A stretch of 46,153 nucleotides of DNA, taken from positions 1-46,153 of the forward strand of contig JAJZPC010000013.1 of NCBI GenBank assembly GCA_021811385.1. Reading direction: 5' to 3'. Below the pieces are notes generated by a model. It saw nothing but the letters and a program-made list of their open reading frames with translations, was not told the origin of the DNA and made no database searches. The DNA comes from Deltaproteobacteria bacterium. Its GTDB lineage: Bacteria; Desulfobacterota; Desulfobulbia; Desulfobulbales; Desulfurivibrionaceae. The position numbers and the translations under genes are program-made. This document shows positions 22,447 to 24,684 of this stretch, in pieces. Position 1 is the first letter of the stretch; every line of letters starts with the position of its first letter.

Positions 22447-24459
22447 TTATCTTGAGAACAGACCTGTGCCCGAGGCCCCTTCCGGTTGGGCGCCGGTCTG
22501 TCGTAATCCCGATGCGTCCTTGAGGTTTGCCCCCTTAAGGTTGGCATTGGTCAGGTCAGCCTTGTAGAAATCAACCCCTTCCAGATCGGCATTTTCCAGA
22601 TTGGCTCCGGTAAGGTTCGCGCCTTTGAGGTTGGCCCCTTCCAGGTCGGCGTCACGCAGGTTTGCCCCGGAGAGATTGCAGCGCTCAAGGACAGCCTCTT
22701 TCAGTTTTTTCCCGGAGAGATCCTGGCCGGCAAGGTTGCATTCAACACAGCGGTTGGATTGCAGGAGTTTTTCCATGTCGGTAAGCTTGGGGCTTTCCGG
22801 CGGTTTCACCTCTTCCGGTATCTTGCTCAAGACCGGAGGAAGGGGTGGGGTCTGCGGGACTGGCTGAGCCACGGGCTGGATGGCGACGGGTGTGGCGGGC
22901 GGCACTGTCTCCGCTGCTGCCTTGGCCGGAGGCGTCACCGCAGCCGGAGCTGTTGCGGTCGGACCGCTGGGAACGGCTGCGGCGACGGCGACGGGGGGCT
23001 CCTTATCCGAGGGCATGGCCGTGGCCGGGCTGGGCGCAGGCGCAACGGCGACGTCGGCTGTGTCGTTTTCCTGCTCGGGGGTACCCAGCGTCGGCGTTGT
23101 TTGCATGACCTGGAAGGATGGAGCCCACAGGTTTTCCGCCTGGGCGCGATCCCTTTCCAGGGGATTTTTTCTCTTGGAGGGTGGAGGGGTTTTGCTGCGG
23201 TACTGGGCGAGGAAGGCATCGATGTCCTCTTTGGTGCCTTTCTGCCGTTCTTTCTCCATGATCGTTCCGATCAGGTACGCTCCCTCGAGGTCAGCCCCGG
23301 TCAGGATCGCCCCGGTGAGGTCGGCTTTGTAGAGGTCGGCTCCGGCGAGATTTGCCCTGGTGAGATTTGCCTGGCTGAGGTTTGCCGTGGCCAGGTCCGC
23401 CGTCTTGAGGCTTGCCCCTTCCAGATTGGCTCCGCTCAGGTTGGCTCCGGCCAGATTCGCCCGATTCAGATTGAGGCCGGTAAGGTCTGCCCCGGCCAGG
23501 TTGCAGCCGGGACATGCGTTTTGGGCGACCAGACGTTCCACCTCGGAGGCGGCTCCCGGGGGCATGGACGGTTGGACCGCTGGTTTTTTTGTGACTCGGA
23601 CCGGTGCGGGCTGCGCCGGAGCTGGTTGCACCGGAGGCGGTTGCACCGGAGGCGGTTGCACCGGAGGCGGTTGCGCCTGGGGCGGAGCTGCGGGGGCCAC
23701 CGCCTGCGCCGTCTGCGCCGGTTCCGGTAAGGAGGCCGGCAACTGGTTTTCCGCAACCTCGGGCGTCGTTTCCTTGCGGGGCAGGGCGGGCAACGATGCC
23801 GGGGCGGGAGTCGGCTCGAAAACGGGCTGCGGCGGAGGTGTCGATGCCGAAGGAGACGGAACGGGAAGCGTGGGCGCAACCTTGGCTGCAACCGGAGCTG
23901 CAGGGGGAGGGGCCGGTGCTGCTTGCTTTGGCTCGGGCTGGGGAGCAGGTATGGCCGGTTCGGTTTTTTCCGGAAGTGCTGGGGCGGCAGGCGGTTCCGG
24001 CACGGGTTTTTCCGGCCTTGTCAGGGCATTCTCCGGGGCGGTGTATGCCGAGCCTTCAAGGATTGCCCGCTCATGGTTGCTGCGGGCAAGTGAGGCGTCC
24101 TTGAAGTTGGCCCCCTTGATAAAGGCGCCGGAGAGATCCGCCTTGTAGAGATCAGCCTCTTCCAGGTTGGCGTCGACCAGGTTTGCCCCGGAAAGGTCAA
24201 CGGCCTTGAGGTTTGCCCCTTCCAGATCGGCCCCGGCCAGGTTTGCCCTGGAAAGATTGCTCCGCTCCAGGCAGGCGGCGGCAAGCTTTGCCCGGCGCAG
24301 ATCCGCGCCGGAAAGATCGCATTCCACGCACCGGTTGGCGGTCTTCAGGGTTTCAAGATCTTTTTCGGTGTAGGCGGCGGCGTGGCGGGGTATGGCAGCC
24401 AGGCACAGGGAGCAGAACAGCAGGGTGGCCGCAGGTGTTTTTTTGTTTGAATGTGCCAA
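22447..24459 (-). CDS. Secreted protein with three pentapeptide-repeat blocks and Pro/Ala-rich linkers
   Basis: 670 residues. A signal peptide (1-29, ending HAAA) is followed by pentapeptide-repeat block 1 (about 44-136), a Pro/Ala/Val linker (about 145-305), block 2 (about 316-400), a second linker (about 420-560) and block 3 (about 571-650). Repeats follow A(D/N)LxG(A), for example ANLKGANLTGANL. Each block opens with the same cysteine cap: NRCVEC (Cys44/47), NACPGC (316/319) and NRCVEC (571/574). Such blocks fold as right-handed quadrilateral beta helices. The CxxC pairs may bind metal or form disulfides. The only in-frame start is TTG at 24459, because an in-frame stop lies a few codons upstream. 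It is a single gene and its function is unknown; a periplasmic or surface structural role is inferred. Confidence 0.88.
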   Translation of the reverse strand: MAHSNKKTPAATLLFCSLCLAAIPRHAAAYTEKDLETLKTANRCVECDLSGADLRRAKLAAACLERSNLSRANLAGADLEGANLKAVDLSGANLVDANLEEADLYKADLSGAFIKGANFKDASLARSNHERAILEGSAYTAPENALTRPEKPVPEPPAAPALPEKTEPAIPAPQPEPKQAAPAPPPAAPVAAKVAPTLPVPSPSASTPPPQPVFEPTPAPASLPALPRKETTPEVAENQLPASLPEPAQTAQAVAPAAPPQAQPPPVQPPPVQPPPVQPAPAQPAPVRVTKKPAVQPSMPPGAASEVERLVAQNACPGCNLAGADLTGLNLNRANLAGANLSGANLEGASLKTADLATANLSQANLTRANLAGADLYKADLTGAILTGADLEGAYLIGTIMEKERQKGTKEDIDAFLAQYRSKTPPPSKRKNPLERDRAQAENLWAPSFQVMQTTPTLGTPEQENDTADVAVAPAPSPATAMPSDKEPPVAVAAAVPSGPTATAPAAVTPPAKAAAETVPPATPVAIQPVAQPVPQTPPLPPVLSKIPEEVKPPESPKLTDMEKLLQSNRCVECNLAGQDLSGKKLKEAVLERCNLSGANLRDADLEGANLKGANLTGANLENADLEGVDFYKADLTNANLKGANLKDASGLRQTGAQPEGASGTGLFSR
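23626..23670. repeat. 15-bp tandem repeat, three perfect copies
   Basis: TTGCACCGGAGGCGG occurs three times in a row inside the first linker of the pentapeptide protein and encodes repeated PPVQP on the minus strand. Flanking degenerate units on both sides extend the pattern. Length variation by slippage is likely. Confidence 0.9.
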
Positions 24460-24502: not shown

Positions 24503-24684
24503 GCTTACTTCGCCAGATAACTGAATCATAGGGGTGGAGCCGTGAGCTACGCTTTACCCTGGAATCGTAAGCGATTGCAGGGTGCCGTAGATGCGCGAAA
24601 GAGGCCCGCGAATTATAGCCCGCCTATGTGAGCGGGCCGATGACAAAGCAGGTACGGTGCCCTGTGCTCGCTTACTTCGCCAGA
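24503..24684. other. Structured non-coding element with 15-bp direct repeats
   Basis: The 435-bp gap between the pentapeptide gene and metF has no plausible gene. GCTTACTTCGCCAGA occurs at 24503-24517 and again at 24670-24684. Between and overlapping them, 24567-24589 pairs with 24653-24675: GTAAGCGA with TCGCTTAC (8 bp), a 3-nt internal loop, then CAGGGTGCCGTA with TACGGTGCCCTG (12 bp including two G-U pairs as RNA). Inside that arm a second perfect 7-bp stem, GGCCCGC/GCGGGCC (24603-24609 with 24632-24638), is nested. The whole hairpin is 109 nt. It may be a small RNA, a repeat-family element or a mobile-element remnant; direction is unknown. The rest of the gap (24685-24894) is AT-rich and shows no clear feature. 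Confidence 0.6.

Follow-up and report, generated by a model that had tools for sequence, protein, structure and literature searches.

A gene-less mobile element with IS66-type ends, dispersed across the Desulfobulbales, carries a strand-specific covarying hairpin

The MITEs of bacteria commonly pass for inert debris. To REP elements a role in stabilizing or terminating transcripts behind stop codons is ascribed, and the bcr1-type repeats of the Bacillus cereus group are MITE-like sequences whose RNA-like fold is conserved. The feature described here lies in a 46,153-nucleotide stretch of DNA from a Deltaproteobacteria bacterium (contig JAJZPC010000013.1), which was analysed as a whole and is called the window. 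By its IS66-type ends and 8-bp target duplications the feature is a transposable element; it occurs order-wide and has a strand-specific covarying hairpin aboard (Table 1). The window copy is located between a pentapeptide-repeat gene and metF. It contains no gene, and its conserved part is structured and shows many compensatory changes, which supports the initial annotation of the segment as non-coding. The protein predicted at 22447-24459 on the - strand (670 amino acids, start 58 bp from the element) has three pentapeptide-repeat-like blocks with proline/alanine-rich linkers between them. A search of the open literature for IS66 MITEs or ISBst12 MITEs found nothing relevant. The 'multicopy nucleotide sequences' of Geobacter (PMC2700814) were considered as an earlier description of the family and set aside, since no caption of the supplement fits.

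Table 1. Positions in the window of the element, its parts and the flanking duplication
Feature	Position	Strand	Basis or remark
Left copy of the target-site duplication, TTCGCCAG	24509-24516	.	Congener comparison, duplication statistics
Entire mobile element (MITE), 159 bp	24517-24675	+	Nine empty congener sites; duplication statistics
Left terminal repeat, ATAACTGAATCATAG	24517-24531	+	Family forms GTAACTGATCACAGG / GTAACTATCCAGC; first base G changed to A
Spacer from left end to hairpin, poorly conserved	24532-24566	+	
Inner copy of the terminal repeat, forming the outer stem's 5' arm, GTAAGCGATTGCAGGGTGCC	24567-24586	+	
Conserved core GTAGATGCGCGAAAGAGGCC...GGCCGATGACAAAGCAGGTAC, which contains an inner stem and two G-A-rich internal loops	24587-24655	+	
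Inner stem of the core	24603-24609 paired with 24632-24638	+	
Right terminal repeat, forming the outer stem's 3' arm (GTAAGCGAGCACAGGG when read on the - strand)	24656-24675	+	
Right copy of the target-site duplication, TTCGCCAG	24676-24683	.	

The initial annotation had reported two exact copies of the 15-bp sequence GCTTACTTCGCCAGA, 167 bp apart, as a bracket around the structure. Both copies were found, at 24503-24517 and 24670-24684, and in a scan of the entire window they were the sole exact 15-mer direct repeat with members not more than 300 bp apart. What had looked like a bracket is the exact 8-bp target duplication TTCGCCAG extended by chance matches, namely one A and the hexamer GCTTAC, which matches the element's own end.

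The limits of the element and of its duplication were set by the empty sites of congeners. At the window locus nine congeners have the straight read-through GCGCAATGTTTCCAxCCTTCACCAGAATCTG or a close variant of it, and in the window genome and in G004 the element is present between the TTCGCCAG / TTYACCAG copies. G007 has a decayed copy, G016 displays a near-clean (almost precise) loss of the element, and G006 and G015 (L156, L157) contain a remnant, which lacks the hairpin core and keeps the left half and both ends. The short stem left in these two remnants corresponds to a palindrome-type internal deletion. Identity at the window site was 0.74 for the hairpin and 0.86 for the left flank, the opposite of the relation found at the other shared sites (see below). 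The window copy is dispensable at its site. It is not conserved and probably in decay, and a conserved function for this copy in particular is not supported.

The search of the genome and its relatives that the initial annotation had proposed located the element at 35 places in its own genome and in all 16 congeners. We built a covariance model of the hairpin, which has one match in the window. The model had matches in 12 of 12 sampled congeners and in 84 of the 116 genomes sampled from the order, whose members are mostly uncultured, representing 40 of 49 genera. Copy numbers ranged from tens to more than 100 per genome, the highest being 148. Beyond the order the hairpin was rare (11 further genomes among 198 sampled from the phylum), and the named database records containing the core were Desulfobulbaceae-type MAGs and one Oscillospiraceae MAG. 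The copy at L249 1760-1873, on a contig labelled Oscillospiraceae (Firmicutes), reflects either mis-binning or transfer. In the aligned copies the common core reads GTGCCGCAGATGCGCGAAAGAGGCC...GGCCGATGACAAAGCAGATGCGGTGC; the surrounding outer stem varies in its letters, with the pairing retained, and the distance from the left end to the hairpin is usually 40-50 bp. The family explains a frequent, hitherto unlabelled intergenic feature of Desulfobulbales-type genomes.

Several loci had additional peculiarities. Partial hairpin units stand in tandem at L073 1357-1613 (G066:C16), separated by ATCTCGGG, as if they had arisen by nested insertion or unequal exchange. Two loci of one genome with near-identical flanks, L012 and L031 (G000:C61, C72), differ by a 26-base hairpin inserted after GATGACA, and a similar extra hairpin was seen in L023, L038 and G004. 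G007 has, at about 18077-18152 of L346, where a copy stands in G000, another small sequence, whose end GTAACTACTTAGG is similar; it may represent a second MITE subfamily that occupies this site.

Duplications were scored as 8-bp repeats with at least seven of eight positions matching, directly before a GTAA-like left end. Such a duplication adjoined GTAA in 56 of 202 copies; the mean in 30 shuffles was 1.2 and the maximum 3. Empty sites that confirm an 8-bp duplication were read directly at seven further loci. When the 35 copies of the element's own genome were compared with G007 (the comparison covered 2.28 of 2.80 Mb), about 9 of the 30 sites with two flanks were filled in both genomes, and most others were empty or contained remnants. 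A retro-type insertion with duplications of variable length, which the first few copies had suggested, was dropped after alignment of the ends gave 8-bp duplications.

The left end of young copies, GTAACTATCCAGCTTG, is also one end of a complete IS66-family element in G046, which has GTAACTATCCAGCTC as its other end and is flanked by the duplication GAATATTT. The same genome has 24 copies of the small element. Related IS66 elements with ends of the same type were found in G118 (GTAACTACTCAC) and G028 (GTAACTGTTCAGGTCA), each with exact 8-bp duplications, and the transposases of G046 and G028 scored well above the curated IS66 cut-off (Pfam, NCBIfam). In G028 a Pfam DruA (Druantia protein) gene lies beside the transposase within the IS66-type terminal repeats (L138 2692-3576, G028:C185). 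Because its GTAACTATCCAGC-type ends agree with the ends of a complete IS66-family insertion sequence in a relative, we classify the element as an IS66-type MITE: it has no coding gene, it is flanked by 8-bp duplications, and it has GTAA...TTAC terminal inverted repeats in common with complete IS66 elements, the window copy starting with A instead of G. From the ends and the duplication we infer that an IS66 transposase acting in trans is the probable mover. No IS66 transposase (including PF03050) was found among the 17 genomes of the element's own genus. Insertions differ between congeners, yet this transposase was not detected in the genus, which means that the mobilizer there is unseen; it is missing or unrecognized. 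None of the complete IS66 elements examined contained the hairpin, therefore the transposase need not require it. The initial annotation had named a match to an IS fragment as evidence against its reading. This was borne out in part, since the segment is IS-derived, and conservation and covariation are present as well.

The 109-nt segment 24567-24675 folds on the + strand with -60.2 kcal/mol, as compared with -35.2 +/- 3.8 kcal/mol for shuffled sequences (z -6.6). The fold, in which a GGCCCGC/GCGGGCC stem is nested within a 20-bp outer arm, agrees with the outer pairing and GC-rich inner stem reported for it before. In all 197 copies compared the + strand fold was the more stable one (-68.4 vs -51.9 kcal/mol). 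A tandem U-G/G-U, whose pairs are mismatches on the opposite strand, is present in the window copy and was kept in 84 of 97 copies of relatives. Next to the inner stem 147 of 191 copies have AGA...GAT, and some lineages have AGC...GCT or ATC...GAT instead, apparently the exchanges expected between G-A pairs and Watson-Crick pairs. Neither at the gathering score nor at E values up to 10 did Rfam 15 contain a relevant family. Pairing of the variable outer stem as a target-derived guide was abandoned because this stem sits within the duplications.

Compensatory changes, for which a search in relatives had been advised, were many and strand-biased in the 97 copies. Among the 35 copies of the element's own genome 26 of 39 pairs had changes on both sides. 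In the 97 copies, which come from many families, the cells of 38 pairs were mostly standard pairs, and G-U outnumbered A-C in the outer (83:22), middle (219:7) and inner part (68:14); because each cell stands for a sequence and not for an evolutionary event, and because the structure had guided the alignment, the magnitude of the effect is uncertain, but the strand asymmetry is not accounted for by either circumstance. Rare, probably recent pair states had a weaker excess of G-U over A-C (100:61) and included 200 Watson-Crick states. Comparison of species at the same site gave a similar picture. At 21 sites common to at least two species the hairpin occupies an identical position behind the same gene, with paired differences between the arms, for example GTAACTGCTCAGCA/TGCTGAGCAGTTAC vs GTAACTGTGCAGCA/TGCTACACAGTTAC. 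Comparison between species at 17 shared sites yielded 55 double Watson-Crick changes; one-sided changes led to or from G-U in 72 cases and A-C in 9. Mean identity at 20 shared sites, a set chosen by hairpin detection and thus biased toward hairpin conservation, was 0.84 for the hairpin, 0.62 for the left flank and 0.87 for the right flank, which is mostly gene (p = 6e-5). As these comparisons show, the structure is maintained by compensatory and G-U changes, on the + strand only, in dispersed copies as well as at the same site in different species. The retention of pairing while the letters change suggests that the fold itself has a job. The G-U pairs had been taken as a sign of selection as RNA; the preponderance of G-U over A-C upholds selection for a single-stranded fold of one strand, and RNA is its presumed form.

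A simple gene caller based on coding scores placed 165 of 172 copies between genes. Of these 165, 92 have their hairpin end not more than 15 bp from the stop codon of an opposite-strand gene, and 24 have their left end so placed. In 32 copies the element itself supplies the gene's stop codon, by the TAA in its GTAAC terminus. Adjacency of the hairpin end was more frequent where no duplication is readable (80 of 121 copies) than where one is (12 of 44; p = 1.4e-5), an excess that could reflect retention. Copies for which G007 has an empty site are likewise adjacent to stop codons, which fits a target preference or plain tolerance of insertions at the last codons.

We consider it probable that the feature is an old copy of a non-autonomous IS66-type MITE, whose + strand hairpin has been kept by selection as a folded single strand. 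An IS66-family transposase would act in trans on the gene-less element. The right terminal repeat pairs with its inner copy and encloses the conserved core with its G-A-rich loops, forming a hairpin that makes up about the right two thirds of the element. The + strand may then act as a folded single strand, most likely as RNA read from the element. The folded strand may be needed for spreading, or may provide the host site with something by which the copy is retained, or both; its place of action would be in mobility or at host gene ends, as RNA or as single-stranded DNA. A more far-reaching version, which we hold only tentatively, is that a mobile element as old as the phylum has as its cargo a new structured RNA antisense to the abutted gene, retained and co-evolved in place at the ends of genes in different species and repeatedly adopted by the host. 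A role in the host could also take another form, with copies behind stop codons kept, like REP elements, for stabilization or termination of transcripts. The preference of the hairpin end for stop codons, the use of the element's TAA as stop and the stronger bias in copies without a readable duplication point in this direction. The abutted gene mostly lies on the opposite strand, and the mRNA of this gene therefore contains the - strand with the less stable fold and A-C mismatches; the adjacency is the same at sites empty in G007, the window copy has no adjoining stop codon, and the hairpin lacks the T-run of an intrinsic terminator, since TTCGCCAG comes next in the window and various target sequences do so in other copies. 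Such a host 3'-end element is conceivable but doubtful.

The copies might also be neutral palindromic MITE debris, in which template switching (quasi-palindrome correction) makes the arms change together without selection. The many double Watson-Crick changes relative to intermediates, with 200 rare Watson-Crick states, agree with this, as does the decay or loss of the window copy in congeners. Correction is strand-symmetric and should erase mismatches, yet the U-G/G-U pairs were kept, G-U far exceeded A-C and the G-A internal loops were left uncorrected; at the shared sites, allowing for their selection by hairpin detection, the hairpin was better conserved than the left flank. Neutral debris is unlikely. 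We give about the same low weight to the fold being single-stranded DNA recognized in transposition, as in integron attC sites and IS200/IS605 ends, and not RNA. A DNA hairpin would produce the same strand bias, and the structure is common to mobile copies order-wide; on the other hand, the IS66 transposases belong to the DDE enzymes, the 8-bp duplications fit a double-stranded target, complete IS66 elements do without the hairpin, and the structure evolves also in place at shared sites. In the terms of the initial annotation the feature would be a cis-regulatory RNA with functional bracketing repeats and two exclusive folds, as both GCTTAC hexamers are possible partners of the central GTAAGC. 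The upstream hexamer belongs to the flank and not to the element, and the repeat is a target duplication; most congeners lack the hexamer, and, whether empty or filled, they have other letters at its position (e.g. TTCCATCC or TTTTCAACC). The alternative fold is not conserved and had a z of -1.8, with 8 of 200 shuffles equally good, and most congeners lack the element at this site altogether. This interpretation is hardly tenable, and a switch using the upstream repeat is not supported. The original observation was thus right and its interpretation partly supported, about half of it being right.

The MITE belongs to a family of many hundreds of copies that keeps a complex strand-specific fold; a + strand hairpin under selection is the reading that we prefer. 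Two questions thereby become testable: whether a gene-less transposon can live by such a fold, be it RNA or DNA, and whether the fold is used by hosts at the ends of genes. With IS66 insertion sequences and MITEs the element shares the GTAA ends and the 8-bp target duplication, its ends being identical to those of the G046 IS66; it differs from the insertion sequences in being gene-less and in consisting mostly of a conserved hairpin, which the complete IS66 elements tested lack. HEARO, the omega RNA of IscB (RF02033), is likewise a mobile structured RNA with many gene-less copies. Our element, in contrast, makes target duplications and no link to IscB was seen; a search of its own genome with RF02033 gave no match, nor did the controls. 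The bcr1-type repeats, compared by description only, are similar as structured MITE-like repeats and belong to another host group. REP/BIME elements, which are marked by a GTAG-type foot and by Y1 (RAYT) transposases, resemble it in having many dispersed palindromic intergenic copies, often just behind stop codons, whereas the present element has 8-bp duplications, GTAA ends and a longer, multi-loop structure. Integron attC sites adjoin cassettes or are recombined by an integron integrase; in comparison with them, the copies of the present element are dispersed, with 8-bp duplications at their flanks.
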